A stretch of 32,051 nucleotides of DNA, taken from an uncultured beta proteobacterium (lineage in GTDB: Bacteria > Pseudomonadota > Gammaproteobacteria > Burkholderiales > Burkholderiaceae_C). Both the position numbers and the translations under genes were made by a program. The stretch spans positions 1-32,051 of the forward strand of contig CAIPBW010000171.1 of the NCBI GenBank assembly GCA_903863395.1. Direction: 5' to 3'. The notes under the pieces are model-generated. The model made no database searches. It saw only the letters and a program-made list of their open reading frames with translations, and was not told the origin of the DNA. Positions 1,337 to 28,213 of this stretch are shown one piece after another (within the stretch, counting starts at the first letter, position 1; every line of letters starts with the position of its first letter).

Positions 1337-2737
1337 TCAGGCGACTCCAAACGTCAAAGCCATGGCCTCGGAAACGGGGGCAGAACGAACGCCTTCGATC
1401 TTAATCAATAGTTCCCCCACTTGCTCCTTTGAAAGGCTGCAAATCTCGAAATCTTGATGTGCTGCAACCAGCGCCGGGTAGCACGATGCTTGAAATTGTT
1501 CGAACAATTCCGTGCTCCAAACAATCTGGCTGCAAGCGCTCAACTGTGCCCAGTTCAGCCTTTGGTCACACGCCTCAATCAGTTCCGTGCTCCAAGGTAC
1601 GCCGCCATTTTGGCTGATACTCTCCCAGTCCCAGCGCTCCTGGTAACGCGCAAGCAACTCGGCGCTCCAGTGCAGCGCCGCATTGCCACTGAGCCGCGAC
1701 CAGTCCCAGCGCTCCTGGTAACGCTCCAGCAATTCGACACCCCAGGGCAAGGCGGCGTTGCCGCTAAGTTGCTCCCAATCCCAGCGCTCCCGGTTGCACT
1801 CCAGCAGCTCAAGCGTCCAGGGCACAGCCGCATTGGCACTTAGCCGCTTCCAGTCCCAGCGCTCCTGGTAATGCGCCAGCAACTCAGCATTCCACGGCAG
1901 CGCCGCGTTGGCGCTCAGACGCTCCCAGTCCCAGCGCTCCTGGTAATGCGCCAGCAACTCAGCATTCCACGGCAGCGCCGCGTTGGCGCTCAGACGCTCC
2001 CAGTCCCAATGCCCCAGGTGACGCGCGACCAATGCCAAGCTCCAGGGCAGCGCCGCATTGCCAGAAAGACGGCCCCAGTCCCAACGCTGCCGATGCTGTT
2101 CCAGCAACTCCGCGCTCCAGGGCAGCGCGGGGTTGCCACTAAGCCAGGCAAAACTCCAGCGCGCAGAGAACCGCTGGATCAGATCGATGTTCCAGGGCAA
2201 AGAGGGATTGGCGCTTAAACCGGCCCAATCCCAGCGGTCGACGTAGTTTTCGATCAGTGCTGTGCTCCACGCCAGGCCCGCATGCCAACTCAGCCAGGCC
2301 CAATCCCAGCGGTCAACGTAGCGCTCAACCAGTTGAAAGTCCCACGGCAAACCGGTATTTCTGCGCAAGCGCGCCCAGTCCCAGCGGTCCTTGAAGTGCT
2401 CAATCAGTTCGACGCTCCAGTGCCACCCGGCATCGGCACTCAACCGGGCCCAACCAAGCTTGGAGCCCATGCGCTCCAGAGCGCAAGGGCTCCAGGCAAT
2501 GGCGCGGTTGCTGCCCAGCAGTTTCCAATCCCATTGGTCACCATGGTGCTCAATCTGCTGTGCTGTCAGCGGGTAGTGGCGCTGCACGCATTGGAAGTAC
2601 AGCTCCGGCTGGCGCTCAAAGAACTGCATCAGCTCGCTCTGGTGCAGGCTGGCCAGCGTTGTCTGCACGATATCGCAGCGCCGCACCAGCGCGCTGGAAA
2701 GCTGGTTTGCAGACGCGACGGGAATGAGTGCGCTCAC
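1337..2737 (-). CDS. protein of fourteen 25-residue Trp-rich (WDW) repeats
   Basis: I do not recognise a named family. The 466-residue product has a 68-residue N-terminal part, fourteen perfect-length 25-residue repeats (residues 69-418) and a 48-residue tail. The repeat consensus is WDW..LS.N.ALPW..ELLE.Y.ER: each unit has an aromatic WDW corner, an Asn, an LPW corner and one amphipathic helix. That pattern suggests a solenoid used for binding. The start is taken as GTG at 2737. It overlaps the TGA of the preceding gene as GTGA and has AGGA ten bases upstream. A longer ATG frame (2875) would overlap the neighbour by over 140 bases. No signal peptide or membrane segment is visible. Divergence between repeats is greatest at both ends, as usual for repeat solenoids. 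It is the third gene of the Sel1/J-domain operon. Confidence 0.85.
   Translation of the reverse strand: MSALIPVASANQLSSALVRRCDIVQTTLASLHQSELMQFFERQPELYFQCVQRHYPLTAQQIEHHGDQWDWKLLGSNRAIAWSPCALERMGSKLGWARLSADAGWHWSVELIEHFKDRWDWARLRRNTGLPWDFQLVERYVDRWDWAWLSWHAGLAWSTALIENYVDRWDWAGLSANPSLPWNIDLIQRFSARWSFAWLSGNPALPWSAELLEQHRQRWDWGRLSGNAALPWSLALVARHLGHWDWERLSANAALPWNAELLAHYQERWDWERLSANAALPWNAELLAHYQERWDWKRLSANAAVPWTLELLECNRERWDWEQLSGNAALPWGVELLERYQERWDWSRLSGNAALHWSAELLARYQERWDWESISQNGGVPWSTELIEACDQRLNWAQLSACSQIVWSTELFEQFQASCYPALVAAHQDFEICSLSKEQVGELLIKIEGVRSAPVSEAMALTFGVA
1859..2010 (-). repeat. near-identical 75-bp tandem duplication inside the WDW-repeat gene
   Basis: Plus-strand bases 1861-1935 and 1936-2010 are identical except for their last two bases. 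They encode repeats 8 and 9, which are identical at protein level. The other repeats are clearly diverged, so this is a recent unit duplication and shows that the array can change copy number. Confidence 0.9.
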
Positions 2738-3978
2738 GCCTGCATTTCCTGTGAAAACTGATTTAACTCCGTCATGTAGTGCTGCATTGCCGCCTTCAGA
2801 CGCTTGGCCTGCTGCGCGAACCACGCGTTCCAATCCGGCTTCGAACTGAGCTCTTTCCAACTCTTGCTTTGCCACACCGCAGCCAACTGTCGGTTTCGTT
2901 GCGCCAGCGTCTGCTGCAACTCGGCCAAGCGCTGTTGCAGTTGCTGCTTCGGATCAATGGCAGCCGACTCGACCCTGACACCCAGGCCGGTTTCAATGCT
3001 GCCCCGCAACTTCTGCAAGCCCGCAAGGTCGCTGTTCTGAAACGTGGTTTGCAACTGCTGAAAGTACCCTTGTGCGTGGCCCTTGTCCTCTTCGCGGACA
3101 CGATCGGGGTGGCACTGCATCGCCAGTTTGCGGTAGAGATGCTTGAGTTCACGCTGTTGCACCGGGTCGAGTTGCTCGGGTGCGACTTCACTGGCCTTGG
3201 CCGAGCGTGCCTCTTCGTAGTCGCGATACACGTCGTCTGCGGCTTGCGCCTGCTGGCGCTGCAAATCGTCCTGCTGGTGCTGGTACTGGGCATGGAGGTA
3301 GCGGCGCTTGAGGTCAAGGTAGCGCCGCATCAGGTCGCCAATGGCCAAATCCTGCTGGTGGTCGAACAGATGAATCTGGCGGTGAATATCGGCAATTTCG
3401 GTTTCAATCGCAACGACTCTGGCCTCGGTCATGCGAATATGCAAGCGCATTTCTTCGAGTTGCGCATCCTCGTACACGCTCAACGCAGCGCCCTGGCTCT
3501 GCCCTGCATCGCTTGAAACTTCCTCGAATCCGGTAGTCTGCGGGGTGTCACCGACCAGTGCCAGGAAACTGCGGCGCACGTAGTCTGCAATCTCGCCGTC
3601 GTGCTGCACCAGGATGGAGACCCGCGTATCGCCATCCTGAACGGCCGTCCACTGAAAATCGCCGCTGACCACCGTGAAGTCATCAATCAAACACACCGAT
3701 TCATCGCCGTCCGTGGGAATCTGCGGCAACCAGTACAGCGTTGCCCCTAACGCCGTGAGGCGCTCCCAGGCATTGGACGCGTGGCGGTTGGCGGTGCAAT
3801 CGGCAAGAACCAGTGCTACGCACACGCCCCGGCGCTGGCAGGCCACCAGCGCTTCAAACAAATCCCGGTCGGTAAACTCTTGCACCATCACTCGCACGCT
3901 GTGCCGGGCAGAGGCCAAGTGCCGTGCAATCGCGCTCGGGATTGCGGAAAAATGGGCTTCAACTTGCAAGGGCTGCAT
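2734..3978 (-). CDS. degenerate PLD-like domain fused to coiled coil and J-domain
   Basis: A 414-residue fusion. Residues 1-147 resemble one half of a phospholipase-D-like fold: a strand/helix start (HSVRVMVQEFTDRDLFEALV) and a late motif LIDDFTVVSGDFQWT, which sits where active enzymes have HxKx4Dx6GSxN. Only the Asp (99) and Gly (106) remain; the His and Lys positions are Asp92 and Ser94, so catalysis is unlikely. Residues 165-260 are a charged, Gln-rich coiled coil. Residues 272-325 are a J-domain-like segment, LKHLYRKLAMQCHPDRV, with the HPD tripeptide at 290-292 that in J-proteins stimulates Hsp70 ATPase. The C-terminal 75 residues are again helical. It starts six bases after the upstream Sel1 gene and its TGA overlaps the next GTG. 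Role inferred: recruiting DnaK to something bound by the Sel1 or WDW partners. Confidence 0.8.
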   Translation of the reverse strand: MQPLQVEAHFSAIPSAIARHLASARHSVRVMVQEFTDRDLFEALVACQRRGVCVALVLADCTANRHASNAWERLTALGATLYWLPQIPTDGDESVCLIDDFTVVSGDFQWTAVQDGDTRVSILVQHDGEIADYVRRSFLALVGDTPQTTGFEEVSSDAGQSQGAALSVYEDAQLEEMRLHIRMTEARVVAIETEIADIHRQIHLFDHQQDLAIGDLMRRYLDLKRRYLHAQYQHQQDDLQRQQAQAADDVYRDYEEARSAKASEVAPEQLDPVQQRELKHLYRKLAMQCHPDRVREEDKGHAQGYFQQLQTTFQNSDLAGLQKLRGSIETGLGVRVESAAIDPKQQLQQRLAELQQTLAQRNRQLAAVWQSKSWKELSSKPDWNAWFAQQAKRLKAAMQHYMTELNQFSQEMQA

Positions 3979-6486: not shown

Positions 6487-7383
6487 TCAGGGTTTTTCGC
6501 CAGCCGCAGCGGCTGGAGACGTTCTCGGATATTGAACCAGGCGCTCACGCGGCTTGGGCGCAACCGGTGGCACAGCACTGGGCTGTGAACCACTGGGTGC
6601 GGTTTCGGTCGCAGGACGCTCCTTCATGTGCTTGGCCATCTCCTCCAACTCGCGGCGAATGCCTCCCGCATCGGGCAAGCTGCCTTGCAAGCGCTGGATT
6701 TGCGTTGACACCGCCTTGGTGGAATTGCTTTGCTGCGACAGTTTTGAGTTGATGTCCTCGAGCAGTCTGAGCATCTCTTTGCCCTTGTCTTCCGGGGGCT
6801 TGGGTTTGGTTTCGGACGCGGCCTGGATGCTCTTGATCACTTCGTCGATGCGCAGTTCCAGCTTGGCTTGGTTGTTACTGATGACATCCTGCTTTTGCGA
6901 AACATCCTTGATGATGTCGCTCACCGAATCAAACAGACTGACCGAAGAGTCCATGGTGATCACGCGTTTGCCTACCGCCAGAATCATGGAGTCGAGTTGC
7001 GAGACCCGATCCTGAAGACGAAAACTCAGGAAGGTAAACAGGCCCAGCGCCAGCACCAAGACGCCGCCAAACACGCCCAGCAGGATCTTGTTCATCTTCT
7101 GCTGGGACAGCGTTGTGGTCATCAGTGCCGCAGCGGCCTGGTGCATTTCCATGCCTGCTTTGGCCGCCAATGCCGCGCTGCGTGTGGCCAGTTCGGCCGA
7201 ATCGAAGATCGCCGACTTAAGTTCCTCGGCCATGAACGCGTCGTCGGCCAGTGACGCATCGCTGGCTGCTGGCTCGGTTACGACGGGCTCGCTCGGTGTT
7301 GGTGCGGCTGGCGCAACTGGCGCGGCCGGTGCCGCAGCACCAGTGTGCTCAGCTTCAGCATGGGGAGTGGTTTCTGTGGTCAT
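6487..7383 (-). CDS. membrane-anchored coiled-coil protein at end of flagellar operon, unknown
   Basis: I do not recognise this 298-residue protein. It has an Ala/Pro-rich N-terminus (1-45), a helical cytoplasmic stretch, one strong membrane segment (about 98-121) with no signal-cleavage look, and a long outside or periplasmic region. That region is predicted to be coiled coil (122-260) and ends in a Pro-rich tail. It is the last gene of the fliK-to-flhB run, 39 bases after the preceding small gene, and converges with the sigma-54 activator. A structural or scaffolding role at the flagellated pole is plausible because of the company it keeps, but nothing in the sequence proves it. Confidence 0.75.
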   Translation of the reverse strand: MTTETTPHAEAEHTGAAAPAAPVAPAAPTPSEPVVTEPAASDASLADDAFMAEELKSAIFDSAELATRSAALAAKAGMEMHQAAAALMTTTLSQQKMNKILLGVFGGVLVLALGLFTFLSFRLQDRVSQLDSMILAVGKRVITMDSSVSLFDSVSDIIKDVSQKQDVISNNQAKLELRIDEVIKSIQAASETKPKPPEDKGKEMLRLLEDINSKLSQQSNSTKAVSTQIQRLQGSLPDAGGIRRELEEMAKHMKERPATETAPSGSQPSAVPPVAPKPRERLVQYPRTSPAAAAGEKP

Positions 7384-7422
7384 AGGGTCACCTGGAGTTG
7401 GGGTCCGACTGCTTGCTCAGGT

Positions 7423-7833
7423 TCAAATGCCTGCATTCATCAACTTCTCAAGTTCGTTGAGTTTCGCGCGCACCTTGTCGTTTTCTATTTTCAAATGAAT
7501 CAGGCGCGCCGGGAAATCCATCTCCGGTTGAACCTTGGCAACAACAACCGGCGCAGGCTTTTCCTCGACGGGCATGGGTGCAGCCACTTCGACAACTGCC
7601 GGCGCTACAACGTCCAAGGTCGGTTCGACCCCATGTGGCGTGGCAATCGGAGGTGGAACTTCTACGCGTCGGTCGTTAAAGGATTCCGCGGCATGGAAGG
7701 AATCCGGCTCGACGTACAACTGCTCAACGATCATTGAGTGTGCTGCAACCGCCTTCTTCTTGGCCGGTTGGTTGGTGTCTTCTGCGCCTTCTGCGCTGGG
7801 GTCCTGATTGCGGACAAATTGAGATTCAGCCAT
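7423..7833 (-). CDS. small Pro/Val/Glu-rich protein of flagellar operon, unknown
   Basis: A 136-residue soluble protein with a charged N-terminus, a low-complexity Pro/Val/Ala middle (about 60-100) and a helical C-terminal 35 residues (LIHLKIENDKVRAKLNELEK) that look like a short coiled coil. Its ATG overlaps the TGA of the preceding DamX-like gene by one base (TGATG), so translation is probably coupled. No family recognised. The low-complexity linker plus coiled coil fits an adaptor between the two membrane proteins encoded on either side. Confidence 0.72.
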   Translation of the reverse strand: MAESQFVRNQDPSAEGAEDTNQPAKKKAVAAHSMIVEQLYVEPDSFHAAESFNDRRVEVPPPIATPHGVEPTLDVVAPAVVEVAAPMPVEEKPAPVVVAKVQPEMDFPARLIHLKIENDKVRAKLNELEKLMNAGI

Positions 7834-9242
7834 CAGTTTTTCTCCTTGCGTTTTGCCGTACCGGTATCGGCGGGTGGTGGTGGAGTCAACTGCTCCTTGA
7901 TGGATAGCGCTGTGCGAACCCGCACATCCTTGGGAATGCCGCCGCGCTCGATAAAGCGCCCGACCTCGGCAGCCGAATCAAACGGGCCCGACACCATGAC
8001 GTATTGGGGTGACTCCTGGTTGGGCACATAGGTTGCAACCAATTGCACATTCGTCAACTCAGGATGCCGACGCATCCAAAGCACGGCCTCCTGGTAGTTG
8101 GAAATGGCAACATGCTGGATCAGCAGCGTATCGCGGGGCATCTTTTCGATCCATGACTGACCCGCGGACACGTCCAGCGGCAGATTGAACGCTTTCTCCT
8201 GGACATCTGCCTTGATCGCCCCGGCCGCATCGGGGGCCTTGTCGGAAGCATTCGGAGCGCCTGCCGCGACAGGCACCGCGCTGCTGGGCACCAGCGGCGC
8301 AACGGCAGCGGCTGCAGTGGATGAGTCGATTGCTGGCACCTGCGTGTTGCCCGGTTTGGCCGCGCTACTTTCGCCCGCCATGGGGTTGTTGCCGGAGAAC
8401 AGCGCTGCCCAACTCCAATTGAGCCGCGACCCGGCTGAGGAGACGTGGAACATGGCCGTCAACAGGAACGAAATCGTCAGCATCCCAACGCCCGCAAGAA
8501 TCCAGCGCCAAGCCGCGCGCCTGGAAAGCACTTGCTCCGTCTCTGGCGCTGCTGCTTGCGCCGCCGCAGCCGGCGCTGGCGTTGCAGCCGGTGCCGTGGG
8601 TGGTGAAACAGGATCGGGCTGAGAGGGCCTGGCAGCCGCGAGGGACAACTTCTTCAACAAAGCCTTGACTGCGCCTTCGCGCCCCTCCACCCGGGCTTCT
8701 TCCAGCATGCTCTGAGCCTGTTCGGGCGTCGGCGGCTCGATTTCCCAGGTCAAGATACTGCGTCCAAAAGAACTCAGCAGACCGGGTTTCTTGCTCGCCA
8801 CCGTCATCAGCAGAACGACGCGAATATTGGCTGCAGGAAAATGTTGCACCAGGCGCGCCAGTAGTTCTACCTCATGGTCTGGCAGCGCGCTGGTGTCGTG
8901 CACGATCCAGATGCGCGGCGCCGCCACGGCAACCTTGCCATCCATCGCATCTTGTATCGAGCTGTTGACCAGCACTTCGTTGAAGCGCGCCAGCAAGGCT
9001 TCCGGGCTGGCCGGGAAATAGACTTCAACCGCAAAGTCGGGCGCCACCTGGCGCAAGCGCGCAAGCAGCATGGTGTTGTAATGGTCAAGGATTGCTTCGT
9101 GGGTGCTGACCAGCGACAAACTCCTGCCATCAAGCGTCAGGGCAGCAACATAGCCCTCGAGTCGCAAGCGATCGACCGACCGAAAAAAGAACGGCGGTGA
9201 ATTCGAGATATGGTCTTCTGCCGTACGTAGCGACATGTTCAT
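7833..9242 (-). CDS. DamX/ExeA-like membrane protein with SPOR-like C-terminus
   Basis: The 469-residue product starts in an ATGA overlap with the flhB stop. Residues 20-200 look like an ExeA/DamX-type ATPase fold: a Walker-B-like RIWIVHDTSAL (110-120) and a following VVLLM strand. No Walker A is present where it should be (around 35-48), so ATP hydrolysis is doubtful. A Pro/Ala linker follows, then a membrane helix (about 246-266), another Ala/Pro linker and a C-terminal domain (363-448). That domain has the pattern of SPOR domains, which bind denuded peptidoglycan, including YVMVSGPFDSAAEVGRFI. DamX-like proteins act at division sites or poles. Here the location right behind flhB suggests a flagellar positioning or cell-wall anchoring role (inference). 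Confidence 0.7.
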   Translation of the reverse strand: MNMSLRTAEDHISNSPPFFFRSVDRLRLEGYVAALTLDGRSLSLVSTHEAILDHYNTMLLARLRQVAPDFAVEVYFPASPEALLARFNEVLVNSSIQDAMDGKVAVAAPRIWIVHDTSALPDHEVELLARLVQHFPAANIRVVLLMTVASKKPGLLSSFGRSILTWEIEPPTPEQAQSMLEEARVEGREGAVKALLKKLSLAAARPSQPDPVSPPTAPAATPAPAAAAQAAAPETEQVLSRRAAWRWILAGVGMLTISFLLTAMFHVSSAGSRLNWSWAALFSGNNPMAGESSAAKPGNTQVPAIDSSTAAAAVAPLVPSSAVPVAAGAPNASDKAPDAAGAIKADVQEKAFNLPLDVSAGQSWIEKMPRDTLLIQHVAISNYQEAVLWMRRHPELTNVQLVATYVPNQESPQYVMVSGPFDSAAEVGRFIERGGIPKDVRVRTALSIKEQLTPPPPADTGTAKRKEKN

Positions 9243-22375: not shown

Positions 22376-23239
22376 ATGTTCGGCATCATCGGAATCGTGT
22401 TTTTGCTTGTCTGCGTGTTCGGCAGCTTTGTCGTAGGCGGGGGCAACATGAAACCGTTTATCCACGCGGCCCCGATTGAGGGCTGGTGTATTTTCGGCTC
22501 TGCCATCGGCGGCATGCTGATCGGCAACAGCGCCGACGTGGTCAAGGCGGTGCTCGCGGGCATTGGGCGCTGCTTCAAGGGCTCCAAATACCACAAGGAA
22601 GACTACCTCAACACCATCTTCTGCGTCTCCAAGGTCATGAAGACGCTCAAGTCCGAAGGTGCCGTGGCCCTGGAAGCCCACATCGAAACCCCCGAGTCCA
22701 GCGCCATCTTCAGCGAATACCCCAAGCTCTTGGCCGACCATGCCTTGCTGCACCTGATTACCGACACCGTGCGCTTGATGGTGGTCTCGCAAGGCACGCT
22801 CAGCCCGATGGCAGTGGAAGAAGTGATGGACACCGCCATCAAAACCCACCACCACGACGAACTCAAGGCCTCGGACGCCATTGCCACCCTGGCTGGCGCC
22901 TTGCCTGCGCTGGGGATTGTGTCCTGCGTGATGGGCGTGGTGAAAACCATGGACAACATTGACCAGCCACCCGCCATCTTGGGTGGCTTGGTGGGTGCGG
23001 CCCTGGTGGGTACGTTTATCGGGGTGTTCCTGGCTTACGGCTTTTTCGAGCCCTTTGCCAAGCGCTTGTCGCAAGTGATTGAAGACGAGTCCTGCATGTA
23101 CCACGTGGTCAAGCAAATCATCATCGGCACCATGCACGGGCATCCCATGCCACTGATTCTGGAAGCGGCGCGCGTGGCTATCAGCCACCACAACCAGCCC
23201 AGTTTTGCCGAAGTCTTTGACGGCATGCGAGGTAAGTAG
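22376..23239 (+). CDS. motA: flagellar stator protein MotA
   Basis: Proton-channel stator subunit that pushes on FliG. It has 287 residues, close to E. coli MotA (295), with four membrane helices. The cytoplasmic loop contains EGAVALEAHIETPESSAIFS and MVVSQGTLSPMAVEEVMDTA, and helices 3-4 contain ALPALGIVSCVMGVVKTM and LVGAALVGTFIGVFLAYGF. The ATG is preceded by AGGA. motB follows after two bases. I see no sigma-28 site directly upstream; transcription may come from the fliS promoter. Confidence 0.97.
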   Translation: MFGIIGIVFLLVCVFGSFVVGGGNMKPFIHAAPIEGWCIFGSAIGGMLIGNSADVVKAVLAGIGRCFKGSKYHKEDYLNTIFCVSKVMKTLKSEGAVALEAHIETPESSAIFSEYPKLLADHALLHLITDTVRLMVVSQGTLSPMAVEEVMDTAIKTHHHDELKASDAIATLAGALPALGIVSCVMGVVKTMDNIDQPPAILGGLVGAALVGTFIGVFLAYGFFEPFAKRLSQVIEDESCMYHVVKQIIIGTMHGHPMPLILEAARVAISHHNQPSFAEVFDGMRGK

Positions 23240-23241
23240 CC

Positions 23242-24234
23242 ATGGCTGATTCGGAAGAGTCCCCAAAAGCCCCGCCCGAGGCAGTACCCCCCACGGATGA
23301 GGCCAGCGCAGAAGGCGACAAGCCGGCGGTGCCGGAGGGCTTAGCGCCCATCATCGTCATCAAGAAGATTCAGGCCGGTCACGCCGGTGCCCACGGCGGT
23401 GCCTGGAAGATTGCCCTGGCGGACATGATGACGGCCATGATGGCTTTCTTCTTGCTGATGTGGATTCTGGGTGCCACCAACGAATCGCAGCGCAAGAGCG
23501 TTGCCGATTACTTCAAGCCCACCTCGCACAGCGAAGTCACGATGGGCAAGCTCGCCGGCTCCAACGGCATCATGGGCGGCAAGTCCATCATCGACACCGA
23601 CGGTTTTCCCTTCACTGCACGCCAAACTGCCCCGCTGCAGCGCCTGACGCCGCGCTCTGAAGGTGGTCCGACCGAGAACGACCCCTCGCCCAACAGCGAA
23701 AACGCCCGCGATAGCGACCAGATCAGCCAGGCCGAGAAGCGCAAGATTGTCGAAGAGGCCGACCAAAGCAACTTTGACAAGCTCGAAAAAGAGGTGAAGG
23801 AGCACCTTGCAGAGAATCCAAAGCTGGAAAAGATTCAAGACCAGGTGAAATTTGTACGCGAAAAGGAGGGCCTGCGCATCGAGATCATCGACAAGGCCGA
23901 CTTTGCCATGTTCGCCCTGGGTACCAGCCAACTCGAACCCAAGGCGCAAGCGCTGATCGAGGAAGTCTCTCGCTCACTGGCCAGCATGCCCAACAAGCTC
24001 AGCATTCGGGGGCATACGGACAGCGTAGCGTTCGCCAATTCACAAGGTCGCAATAACTGGTCGCTCTCGGCTGAGCGGGCAGAGTCAACACGCGCCTTGC
24101 TGGAGCACCGCGGTGTCGGCACGAAACGCTTCGCGCAAATCGAAGGCGTTGCAGACACCGATCCGTACAACCCCAACGATCCCAAAGATCCGCGTAATCG
24201 CCGCATCAACATCACGGTGCGCTACCGCGATTGA
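23242..24234 (+). CDS. motB: flagellar stator protein MotB
   Basis: Stator subunit anchoring the motor to peptidoglycan. The 330-residue protein has a long 50-residue cytoplasmic N-terminus and one membrane helix starting WKIALADMMTAMMAFFLLMW, in which Asp61 corresponds to the proton-carrying Asp32 of E. coli. A linker/plug region follows, then an OmpA-like peptidoglycan-binding domain (about 215-330) with LSIRGHTDSVAF and NRRINITVRYRD. The helix sequence is of the proton type. Translation is probably coupled to motA. Confidence 0.97.
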   Translation: MADSEESPKAPPEAVPPTDEASAEGDKPAVPEGLAPIIVIKKIQAGHAGAHGGAWKIALADMMTAMMAFFLLMWILGATNESQRKSVADYFKPTSHSEVTMGKLAGSNGIMGGKSIIDTDGFPFTARQTAPLQRLTPRSEGGPTENDPSPNSENARDSDQISQAEKRKIVEEADQSNFDKLEKEVKEHLAENPKLEKIQDQVKFVREKEGLRIEIIDKADFAMFALGTSQLEPKAQALIEEVSRSLASMPNKLSIRGHTDSVAFANSQGRNNWSLSAERAESTRALLEHRGVGTKRFAQIEGVADTDPYNPNDPKDPRNRRINITVRYRD

Positions 24235-24263
24235 CCCGTCCGCCCCTCAACCGGAGTCACGTT

Positions 24264-24962
24264 ATGGATGAGCCAGCAACACCGCCAGCGGTGCCGGAAA
24301 AATTGTTTACGTTTCAAGACTATCTCTTTCTGAGTTATCTTGCTTTTTGCATGTTCTGCGTGGCCTGGGTTGGGCGCATGGCCTACAACGAGGGCATGCA
24401 CAACGAGATCACCAAACGCAACGGTGAACAGTGGGCCAAATGGTTCACCGAAGCTTCCCCGGAACGTGTCAAACCCGACTTTGCGCTCGCGGCCTGCAGC
24501 ACCGCCGCGCCCCCGGTAGTCGCACCCGTGGCGGCCACCCCGGCAACACCCGAAACTGCGGCGACCAATCCAGCATCGGAGGTCCCCTCCGAAGCCACTG
24601 GGGGTGCCATCCCTGTGCCGGTTGAGCCAAAGCCGGTAGAGGCCGCACCTCCCGCACCGCCGGTAAAAGCCTGGGGACCGTGCCAGCAAGCTTTGACGGC
24701 CAAAGGCGGGCCGCTGGCCGACATGATCAATCCTTTTAGCAATCAGCCCGTTGCTTTGGTCGCCAAGTGCGACATGACCGACCGCTCTCTGGCTGGCGCT
24801 CTGGTTCTGGAAAAAATACAGAACACGCCGCCAGGTTCCGCCATCTCGACCATCACTTCGCAGTTGGTCGAAACCGACCCGATCGACCAGAAGATGCAAC
24901 TCCGGATCACGGTCTGCGACAAGGGTGCCTACCCGATTCGCATTGCCGAACTCGACTTCTGA
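24264..24962 (+). CDS. unknown single-pass membrane protein downstream of motB
   Basis: I do not recognise this 232-residue protein. It has a short cytoplasmic start, one membrane helix (about 20-40), then a charged helix, a Pro/Ala/Val linker (about 78-135) and a C-terminal domain of about 95 residues. Three cysteines (140, 169, 218) in that domain suggest a disulphide-stabilised periplasmic fold. The ATG at 24264 has GGAG upstream and lies 29 bases after motB. The next gene, an ion channel, starts ten bases after its stop. The topology (short inside, linker, outer domain) resembles MotB, FliL or TolA-type envelope spanners, so an auxiliary stator role is conceivable but unproven. Confidence 0.8.
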   Translation: MDEPATPPAVPEKLFTFQDYLFLSYLAFCMFCVAWVGRMAYNEGMHNEITKRNGEQWAKWFTEASPERVKPDFALAACSTAAPPVVAPVAATPATPETAATNPASEVPSEATGGAIPVPVEPKPVEAAPPAPPVKAWGPCQQALTAKGGPLADMINPFSNQPVALVAKCDMTDRSLAGALVLEKIQNTPPGSAISTITSQLVETDPIDQKMQLRITVCDKGAYPIRIAELDF

Positions 24963-24972
24963 GGAACGTACC

Positions 24973-26604
24973 ATGGAAACCGCCAACAACCTCTCCAAAA
25001 TTCATGGTTACAACAGCAAAGCGAACATATCGCATGACATGCCGGTCCGCAAATGGATCTACAGCTGGCTGCTCGACCCGACGGTGCCGGGCAACTACCA
25101 AAAATCCATTGACCGCTGGATTGCGATCCTGATCATCACCAACCTGATCGTGCTTTTGTTTGAGCACGTTCCAGCGATCTACGAGCCCAACAAAGTTCTG
25201 TTTCACGCCTTCGACGTATTTTCGGTAGCGATCTTCACCGTTGAATACTTCCTGCGGCTCTACCTGGCACCGGAAGACCACGAGTTCAAAGGCAAGGGGT
25301 ACTCCCACCTGCGCTATATCTTCAGCCCCTTTGCGCTGATCGACTTCATGGCAGTCGCCCCGTTCTACCTGCAAGCATTCATTCCCGTGGACCTGCGCAT
25401 GTTGCGGTTCTTGCGGCTGCTCAGAATCTTGAAACTGTTTCGGGTGCTGATTCCGGCCATTAAACAGTTTGTCATTGCCAATAAGGGCCGCACGTTCCGC
25501 AAAAAAGTGCATGCCTTGATATTCCCGAGCCCCTACGGTGGCGCCCTGCAAGGCATGTTTGACAACTTCATCGTGCTGTGGGTGGTGATCTCGGTGGTGG
25601 CCGTGGTGCTGGAGTCGGTGCAAAGCATCCACTACCACCTGAACCTGCAATTCATCATTCTTGATGCGGTAGCCGTGGGCGTTTTTACCCTGGAGTACAA
25701 CATGCGGCTGTTTTGCTGCGTGGAAGAACCGCGTTACCAGGGTGAAATTATGGGGCGGTTCAAGCAAGGCGGCGAGACCACCGCCATCATCGATCTGTTG
25801 GCGATCGTGCCCTTCTATCTGGAAGCCTTCCTGCACCACTTGTTCGACTTGCGGTTTTTGCGGGTATTCCGGCTGCTGCGGCTGCTCAAGCTCACACGCT
25901 ACACCGGTGCCACCAAGACCCTGACCCAGGTGATCGTGCGCGAGTGGCCCGTGCTTGCCGCATCGGCCTTCGTCATGATGCTGCTGGTGGTCCTTACCGC
26001 CAGCCTGGGCTACCTGTTTGAGCACGAGGCGCAACCTGACAAGTTCGAAAACATTCCCCAGTCAATTTACTGGGCCGTCATTACACTGGCATCGGTGGGT
26101 TACGGAGACATTTCGCCAGTGACCCCGATGGGGCGGATCATGACCATCGTGCTGGCGTTGTTGGGTATCGGTATCTTTGCCATCCCCGCGGCTTTGCTGT
26201 CCTCGGCCTTCAGTGATCAGTTGCGCATCGAACGCGAAACCCTGCGCGACGAGGTTTACCACATGCTCGCCGATGGAACCATTTCCGAGCATGAGGCGGA
26301 CAAGATCAACGCCGAAGCCAAACGCCTGCACTTGAGTGAAGATGAAGTCAAACGCATGATTGACAAGGCCAAGCGCGAGCGGGAATTAAAAGACGACGTC
26401 TCCACGCTTCCGATACACAAAATAGCGGCCACCCCGGAGCACGCGGTGGAGCACTTCAAGTTCATGCTCTCCCAGATCCGCCAGTTGGGCATCATGGCCG
26501 ACGCTGAAAAGTTCCAGGCCGCAGCCGTCAAGAATGACCGCCTGACGAGTACCGAAATGGCCCTGTGGCAACAGATTCAAGGAAAATCAGCGCCGCCTGG
26601 CTGA
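24973..26604 (+). CDS. potassium channel with two tandem voltage-sensor domains and one pore
   Basis: A 543-residue voltage-gated ion channel. Voltage sensor 1 covers about 48-160, and its S4 DLRMLRFLRLLRILKLFR carries R142, R145, R148, R151, K154, R157. Voltage sensor 2 covers about 198-310, and its S4 DLRFLRVFRLLRLLKLTR carries R294, R297, R300, R303, K306, R309. The two copies align across S2 (FTVEYFLRL/FTLEYNMRL) and S3 (IDFMAVAPFYL/IDLLAIVPFYL) with an offset of about 150 residues. A single pore follows: S5, selectivity filter TLASVGYGDI (371-380, the K+ signature) and S6. The cytoplasmic tail (415-543) is helical. Typical bacterial Kv channels are about 250-300 residues with one sensor. 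ATG 24973 has GAGGAA upstream. It is the fourth gene of the motA-motB run. Confidence 0.93.
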   Translation: METANNLSKIHGYNSKANISHDMPVRKWIYSWLLDPTVPGNYQKSIDRWIAILIITNLIVLLFEHVPAIYEPNKVLFHAFDVFSVAIFTVEYFLRLYLAPEDHEFKGKGYSHLRYIFSPFALIDFMAVAPFYLQAFIPVDLRMLRFLRLLRILKLFRVLIPAIKQFVIANKGRTFRKKVHALIFPSPYGGALQGMFDNFIVLWVVISVVAVVLESVQSIHYHLNLQFIILDAVAVGVFTLEYNMRLFCCVEEPRYQGEIMGRFKQGGETTAIIDLLAIVPFYLEAFLHHLFDLRFLRVFRLLRLLKLTRYTGATKTLTQVIVREWPVLAASAFVMMLLVVLTASLGYLFEHEAQPDKFENIPQSIYWAVITLASVGYGDISPVTPMGRIMTIVLALLGIGIFAIPAALLSSAFSDQLRIERETLRDEVYHMLADGTISEHEADKINAEAKRLHLSEDEVKRMIDKAKRERELKDDVSTLPIHKIAATPEHAVEHFKFMLSQIRQLGIMADAEKFQAAAVKNDRLTSTEMALWQQIQGKSAPPG

Positions 26605-27195: not shown

Positions 27196-27681
27196 CTATT
27201 TGCAGTTCACAAACTTTCTCTGCTGGCACTCCATCGCCAACTTCTTGGCTTGGGCGAACTGGTCCAGGTTCAAAAGCTTTTCCACCTCGTCACGCTGCTT
27301 TGCGGCTTCTGCGTTCCCCGCGGCTGCGGCCAGATCGCTCCACATATAGGCGCGGACCAAGTCCCTCTCAACGCCTCGGGCATAGATGTACATGTAGCCC
27401 AATTTGTGCAGTGCCCGGGGTTCGCCCTGCTCCGCAGCCAACCGGTACCACTTGATAGCCGTCACATAGTCTTGCGGCACACCCTGGCCTTGCGCGTACA
27501 TGGCGCCCATGATCGACTGCCCCCTGGCTTCCCCGCGCAGGGCGACAATGCGCCACTTCTGGACGGCGGTAACGTAATCCTGTCGCTCGTAGGCGGAGTA
27601 ACCGTCTTCCCATTCACCGGCGTGGGCCGAAAAACAGACCAGCGTAACCAGAATCAGCAAAGCAAGAGACAGCTTTTTCAT
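27196..27681 (-). CDS. exported Sel1-repeat protein
   Basis: A 161-residue protein with a clear signal peptide (MKKLSLALLILVTLVCFSAHA), then a short lead-in helix pair and about two to three Sel1 repeats (AMYAQGQGVPQDYVTAIKWY is typical). A C-terminal helix with two cysteines follows. It is probably periplasmic or membrane-attached, unlike the cytoplasmic-type Sel1 proteins at the left end. Its C-terminal helix (AQAKKLAMECQQR) resembles the tail of the protein at 3985-5166, so they are related. One base separates it from the preceding gene (TGAGATG), indicating coupled expression. Confidence 0.9.
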   Translation of the reverse strand: MKKLSLALLILVTLVCFSAHAGEWEDGYSAYERQDYVTAVQKWRIVALRGEARGQSIMGAMYAQGQGVPQDYVTAIKWYRLAAEQGEPRALHKLGYMYIYARGVERDLVRAYMWSDLAAAAGNAEAAKQRDEVEKLLNLDQFAQAKKLAMECQQRKFVNCK

Positions 27682-27682
27682 C

Positions 27683-28213
27683 TCAAAACGGTGCCTTGAT
27701 CAGTTGCCCGCAATAGCCTTTGATGATTTCCAGCTTGCGCCCATCCTTCACCGTCAACTGGTCGATAAACTCGCCTGTATCACGGTCAAAGGTAAATTGC
27801 TCGCCGGTCACCATCGTGCCAAAACGCTCAAACATGGCGGGACGACTGACCATGACCTTGCTGCCTTTGACTGTGAGGGCACCCTTGCGCGACTCGGAAA
27901 TGGAAAATATGCCCTGGTACCAACCGGCCCCGGCCTTGTAGTCAATTCCGGCCGCGGCCATCTCCTTGTACACCTTGTGCTGCGCGTCCGGCGTGTCGCC
28001 AGGAACCGAATAGTTGAGGTCGCAGATCATCGTGATTTCCTCGTCCGCATATTTGGCCTTGCCCGCCCTCGCCCCTTGCTGCGCAGACTGGGAGTCAGCG
28101 CCCTTCAACCCGATCCATCCAGCGGCAAACATCAGGCCGAAAACAGCTACAAGCAAAACGGCCGTGCCCAGCGCTGCAATAAATGCGGTTCGAAATGTCT
28201 CGTTTTTTTCCAT
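27683..28213 (-). CDS. membrane-anchored protein of unknown function
   Basis: The 176-residue product is not a family I recognise. It has a short charged N-terminus, one membrane helix (about 9-32), a polar linker and an outer domain with two cysteines (one in EEITMICDLNY, one near the end in GYCGQL). It contains segments suggesting a beta-rich lipocalin-like or similar ligand-binding sheet (ALTVKGSKVMVSRP, GEQFTFDRDTGEFID). It is cotranscribed with the exported Sel1 gene, so the two may act together in the periplasm. Confidence 0.75.
   Translation of the reverse strand: MEKNETFRTAFIAALGTAVLLVAVFGLMFAAGWIGLKGADSQSAQQGARAGKAKYADEEITMICDLNYSVPGDTPDAQHKVYKEMAAAGIDYKAGAGWYQGIFSISESRKGALTVKGSKVMVSRPAMFERFGTMVTGEQFTFDRDTGEFIDQLTVKDGRKLEIIKGYCGQLIKAPF

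Follow-up and report, generated by a model that had tools for sequence, protein, structure and literature searches.

The window analysed here, a stretch of 32,051 nucleotides from an uncultured beta proteobacterium of the Burkholderiales (contig CAIPBW010000171.1), carries behind the stator genes motA and motB a gene for a single-pass membrane protein, orf3, and a gene for a predicted voltage-gated K+ channel whose chain combines two voltage sensors with a single pore. We read Orf3 and the channel as a single module, for which the channel layout, the conserved gating charges and the conserved pairing are shown here; the vicinity of the stator is a local arrangement and the true unit is orf3-channel. 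That this module serves the flagellum is a reading to which we give even odds (a probability of roughly 0.5), considering that in Polynucleobacter it was gained or kept together with flagellar genes and that it is found in three flagellar placements.

Related loci were taken from 80 of 161 confirmed stretches, to which all counts out of 80 refer. In 71 of them Orf3 is encoded directly upstream of the channel and on the same strand, and the gap between both genes has a median of 8 bases (75 loci). Five of the nine loci lacking Orf3 have practically no upstream sequence; L050, L081, L100 and L102 have some, yet no Orf3 was found there, even by profile search. In Polynucleobacter, Orf3 accompanies all 16 orthologous double-sensor channels and is missing from the loci of divergent channels (L137 and L138), and among 250 genomes of the family it is present in 4, exactly those 4 with the long channel. 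The distances between Orf3 sequences follow those between the channels (r 0.86 over 74 pairs, uncorrected for species history). The stator genes, motAB, adjoin the pair in only 6 of the 80 loci (L038-L042 and L049, of which L040 and L041 are both from one isolate), all with the order of the window as far as the contigs reach, and this vicinity is therefore regarded as local. The first-pass annotation had described motA, motB, orf3 and the channel as one run of genes; as a conserved unit, this run was ruled out by the neighbourhood survey.

The genus of Polynucleobacter sp. UB-Piko-W3 (genome G299, locus L114) can test the flagellar link because its flagella vary. Among its 151 genomes the flagellar protein FlhA was over the cut-off in 49, the channel in 25 and both in 21, so that FlhA was found in 21 of 25 channel carriers against 28 of 126 noncarriers (Fisher p 7e-9). 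A match to rpoB was obtained for 109 genomes and the tree was built with the 105 that had it in full; on this tree 12 changes are counted for the channel and 24 for FlhA, and in 11 independent pairs FlhA went with the channel in 7.4 and against it in 0.2 on average (median p 0.016). The association was sharper in the 54 genomes that we called near-closed, with rpoB on a contig longer than about 1.6 Mb: FlhA was present in 15/15 carriers and 8/39 others (p 6e-8), the channel was present in 0/31 genomes without FlhA, and the independent pairs gave 5.7 concordant cases versus 0 (median p 0.031). The association persisted after adjustment for genome size (likelihood ratio 34.0, p 5e-9), and genome size had no effect on it. 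Microbial rhodopsin, used as control, showed no such link with FlhA (4/11 vs 45/140, p 0.75).

Of the 15 near-closed carriers, 8 have the channel at 38-65 kb from flhA, one at 251 kb and 6 at more than 700 kb, and the association can therefore not be put down to physical linkage alone. The FlhA scores in this genus fall into two groups, split by eye, and the double-sensor channel occurs in 0/14 genomes of the higher and 19/35 of the lower group (p 0.0002); this suggests two flagellar systems, of which only the lower-scoring one co-occurs with the channel. The label of double sensor excludes G391, whose divergent channel is 42% identical and has no orf3, and G461, whose channel has a single sensor; both genomes have FlhA, and the 105-genome table reads 20, 2, 16 and 67 with these two and 18, 2, 18 and 67 without them.

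Co-inheritance of the pair with flagella in this one genus, together with its three placements inside flagellar clusters, speaks for a tie to the flagellum as a whole and less for one to motAB. In this sense the link between stator and channel proposed in the first-pass annotation stands in part: motAB is not a conserved neighbour, and the pair is nevertheless co-inherited with flagella and located inside flagellar clusters. A channel that works with the stator itself, being made with motAB and sensing or setting the potential at the motor, seems unlikely to us. Such a partnership would agree with the gaps of 2, 29 and 10 bases in the window and the lack of a terminator in them, with the same order in the six loci mentioned above, and with motAB lying within 8 kb upstream in 5 of the 16 Polynucleobacter double-sensor loci; against it, motAB is not adjacent in 74 of the 80 loci and other flagellar genes serve as neighbours as well.

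These neighbours define the other two of the three flagellar arrangements, the first being that after motAB. In L064 and L074 the pair is located downstream of fliF-fliG-fliH-fliI-fliJ and a few further genes, and in L109 fliF, fliG and fliI lie upstream. In L114 the order is flgK-flgL-motA-motB, a few genes, flhB and then the pair; flgK-flgL-motA-motB and flhB are upstream of the pair in L121, L122, L125 and L126 as well, and motB with flhB in L123. Four more Polynucleobacter genomes thus hold relatives of the L114 flhB and motB at this place (L122, L123, L125 and L126). Grouping of the loci by shared neighbour families was too loose for counting independent contexts. Two small genes of L114 had been labelled flgM and flgN by position alone; Pfam gave these names no support, and they were not used as flagellar evidence. 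Between fliJ and the pair of L064, positions 7278-8621 (L064:7278-8621) encode a carbonic anhydrase domain of eukaryotic type (PF00194). Upstream of orf3-channel in L099, L104 and L108, and divergent from it, are genes for a sensor kinase with a DUF4118 domain (checked in L104), a domain also present in KdpD, and for a response-regulator-like protein.

Somewhat less than even odds are given to the pair being a general channel for membrane potential and K+ homeostasis of freshwater Burkholderiales with no special flagellar tie, the correlation arising because motile strains inhabit more variable water and require both, and the flagellar neighbours being there by chance. This would fit the 70 of 80 loci that have no recognised flagellar gene nearby, the genomes of genus g81, which carry the channel almost always and in several copies, and the ordinary channels of six transmembrane helices (6TM) whose genes form a row downstream of it in L061, L066, L084 and others. 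It is at odds with the near-closed Polynucleobacter genomes, where all 15 carriers have FlhA, with the signal that remains on the tree, with the three separate flagellar placements and with the rhodopsin control.

Several observations weigh against a flagellar role. A recognised flagellar gene lies near the pair in only 10 of the 80 loci, some contigs being too short to tell, and the remaining loci have mixed settings (transport, urease and others; for example an ABC transporter with ureD). In Polynucleobacter, G406, G427, G433 and G520 carry the channel without FlhA, although they may be incomplete assemblies, and the tree test rests on few events, all of them from one genus. Outside that genus the check for FlhA covered 50 of the 80 loci: 46/50 carriers have it, yet so do 202/250 genomes of the family, which makes the co-occurrence uninformative, and raw presence of FlhA in carriers, being close to the family background, was dropped as evidence. 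The 4 carriers without FlhA in this check may be incomplete assemblies. Genus g81 offers no contrast (channel in 80/84, FlhA in 74/84), and carriers without FlhA exist in it (G366, 96% complete). Finally, voltage dependence, K+ selectivity and the contact between channel and Orf3 are predicted only.

The channel gene (24973..26604, + strand) encodes 543 amino acids. The double-sensor K+ channel read there in the first-pass annotation agrees with Pfam, which found the Ion_trans domain (PF00520) twice and Ion_trans_2 (PF07885) once, and with an alignment of 57 sequences, in which both sensors keep their charges. The first sensor comprises residues 43-169 (25099..25479, + strand), with R142, R145, R148, R151, K154 and R157 in helix S4 and the counter-charges E91 in S2 and D124 in S3, all of them invariant in the 57 sequences. 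The second, residues 190-312 (25540..25908, + strand), has R294, R297, R300, R303, K306 and R309 in S4 and E241 and D274 as counter-charges, also invariant, R309 nearly so. The two sensors are 28% identical over S1-S3. The sole pore of the chain has the putative K+ selectivity filter TLASVGYGD (residues 371-379; 26083..26109, + strand), where T371, S374, G376, Y377, G378 and D379 are invariant in the 57 sequences. Residues 419-543 (26227..26601, + strand) form helices in the structure model, presumably a cytoplasmic tail, with a weak TerB/DUF533-like match below cut-off. The model of the whole chain is of moderate confidence (mean predicted local distance difference test, pLDDT, 75.3), weakest in the pore.

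By comparison with the voltage-gated K+ (Kv) channels, the GYGD filter is present and invariant, and a basic residue at every third position of S4 with acidic partners in S2 and S3 occurs twice in each chain, where a Kv subunit has one sensor and one pore. The second sensor and the pore resemble Kv channels, best KCNQ/Kv7 and Kv4, by sequence (KCNQ4, 7.4e-26) and by fold: residues 172-402 of the model matched Kv4, Kv1 and KCNQ structures with VIA Z up to 16.8 and a root mean square deviation of 5.8 over 197 residues. Unlike them, the window channel has an extra complete S1-S4 in front, ten predicted membrane helices, a bacterial origin and a fixed partner, Orf3. Its sequence indicates a channel that would work like Kv and is not a canonical 6TM member. 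By analogy it would be tetrameric, with eight voltage sensors on one pore. It is not a two-repeat 6TM channel either, as the first sensor is followed at about residue 190 by the second sensor and not by a pore of its own. Known multi-module channels share with the window channel the presence of more than one channel module per chain, and consist either of a double 6TM repeat, which carries two pores, or of a 6TM unit combined with a 2TM unit (PMC7576140). The two-repeat 6TM group includes two-pore channels (TPC) and tandem Kv channels. The window channel differs from them in having one pore and two sensors. Searches of the open-licence literature turned up no two-sensor, one-pore channel, and those aimed at a channel in Limnohabitans or Polynucleobacter were equally without result.

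It is improbable, in our judgement, that the first sensor is a vestige and the protein acts as an ordinary Kv channel. In favour of this, the first sensor has no pore attached to it, and single-sensor paralogues exist; however, its six S4 charges and both counter-charges are invariant in the 57 sequences. The layout looks like a speciality of the Burkholderiales, because full double-sensor channels were found in only 2 of 398 sampled genomes of Pseudomonadota; the 80 listed loci are mostly from Burkholderiales. Rows of 6TM channel genes of about 300-340 amino acids, up to five per stretch, are located directly downstream of the double-sensor channel in L118, L119, L061, L066, L084 and others. 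L118 and L119 also have a second double-sensor paralogue without Orf3 beside it, and in L120 (G177:C6:60223-61701) a relative of the channel is split over two overlapping reading frames, being broken or misassembled.

The orf3 gene (24264..24962, + strand) encodes 232 amino acids. The protein was predicted by AlphaFold as one long helix (residues 17-67) followed by a small beta domain, with a mean pLDDT of 88.8, and the latter would lie on the periplasmic side. Residues C78, C140, C169, C218, W137, N156, G178 and G37 are invariant in 57 relatives, and the periplasmic domain is probably stabilised by disulphides. No Pfam or NCBIfam model names the family (57 members searched, E up to 0.1); weak matches were scattered over single members, the commonest being TIGR00860 in 4/57 (best 0.00067), which does not include the protein of the window. 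A fold search gave no match at E 0.001; VIA Z was 3.2 at best, and the weak matches were mostly to Ig/FN3-like domains, which are common arrangements.

FliL and MotB have one N-terminal transmembrane helix followed by a domain, and the first-pass annotation had called Orf3 MotB/FliL-like in topology. The single-pass topology was borne out by the model; kinship with FliL or MotB was not, since neither a FliL nor an OmpA profile matched any of the 57 members in the same searches of Pfam and NCBIfam, and the protein stays with the channel. An accessory role for Orf3, at the stator or in the manner of FliL, with the channel as an unrelated following gene, has hardly any probability left: the likeness of the N-terminal helix and following domain speaks for it, and the missing profiles already disfavour it, as does the retention of Orf3 next to the channel, usually with no motAB there, in 71 of 80 loci. 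Because Orf3 follows the channel across loci and not the stator, the better reading makes it a channel subunit or partner. KCNE and the CatSper auxiliary subunits are single-pass partners of voltage-gated channels. Orf3 would have this in common with them, without a sequence or clear fold match; no KCNE was among the sequence matches in a profile search of the PDB. The likeness would be one of analogy only.

In the window, the four genes form the end of a flagellar run with the order flhA-flhF-flhG-fliA-fliS-motA-motB-orf3-channel, where flhA was checked by PF00771 and the names flhF, flhG and fliA were read from the sequence. All coordinates of the four genes are window positions. MotA (22376..23239, + strand, 287 amino acids) matched TIGR03818, the MotA1 model, at 3.6e-96 with 321.6 bits (cut-off 303.8), together with PF20560 and PF01618; MotB (23242..24234, + strand, 330 amino acids) has a MotB_plug domain (PF13677, 1.6e-17) and an OmpA domain (PF00691, 1.5e-13). 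Both are ordinary members of their families, as they had been named from the start; the proton as coupling ion of this stator is an assumption of the first-pass annotation. The order, the + strand and the gaps noted earlier were recovered from the open reading frame coordinates, and the good ribosome sites are seen as a purine-rich stretch 5' of each of the four starts. The order fliS-motA-motB-orf3-channel is repeated in other assemblies (L038, L039, L041, L042 and L049) and is therefore not an assembly artefact. The terminator scan found no terminator-like site in the short gaps. No sigma-70-like promoter was found before motA, orf3 or the channel, the single site of this kind lying inside the channel gene, and sigma-28-like patterns (at most 3 mismatches) gave 7 and 8 matches, none of them before these three genes. 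One common transcript is therefore plausible but unproven.

Directly 3' of the channel there is an Adhesin_E family protein (PF16747; 26636-27034, + strand). It is followed on the - strand by a Sel1-like protein, recognised by eye (27196-27681), and by a protein of 176 amino acids with an N-terminal hydrophobic stretch and without Pfam match (27683-28213). In L039-L042, genes of the clusters of these last two come immediately after the channel and share its strand, and a gene of the cluster of the 176-residue protein also precedes orf3 in L064 and L074. At the other end of the window (1337-2875, - strand) a protein of 512 amino acids has many Trp-rich repeats of about 20 residues each (ERWDWxRLSxNAALPW).

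Returning to the flagellar reading of the orf3-channel module, the pair may tune the motor through the membrane potential. When the membrane depolarises, for example by motor load or de-energisation, the sensors would open the pore, and in dilute fresh water K+ would then leave the cell and restore the potential on which the stator runs. With so little K+ outside, the K+ equilibrium potential is far below the resting potential, and opening a K+ channel drives the membrane potential lower. The motor would in this way keep its driving force, a point that follows from general electrophysiology and is not a result. The motor would have the K+ gradient as its buffer battery, and Orf3 may control how the channel gates or where it is located. 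Tentatively, and with somewhat less confidence than in the flagellar role as such, we picture a flagellum-dedicated K+ channel complex with eight sensors on one pore and its own single-pass periplasmic subunit, which either holds the potential by means of the K+ gradient or signals the energy state of the motor.

The closest precedent for a flagellum-linked channel is the Na+ channel of alkaliphilic Bacillus (NaVBP/NsvBa), a bacterial voltage-gated channel tied to motility and to the flagellar ion cycle, whose blockers lower the swimming speed and raise tumbling in B. pseudofirmus (PMC4225499). Unlike the window channel, NaVBP/NsvBa is Na+ selective or nonselective, belongs to alkaliphiles and has a supposed role in ion supply for MotPS. 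It has one sensor per subunit. Most voltage-gated K+ channels of bacteria have no known role. Here, two intact sensors on one pore, present in many freshwater bacteria with one partner and inherited with flagella, make the role testable by swimming assays, and the channel is a new layout for studying how sensors are coupled to a pore. If it is true that the complex is dedicated to the flagellum, it would parallel in function the ion channels that sperm have in their flagella.

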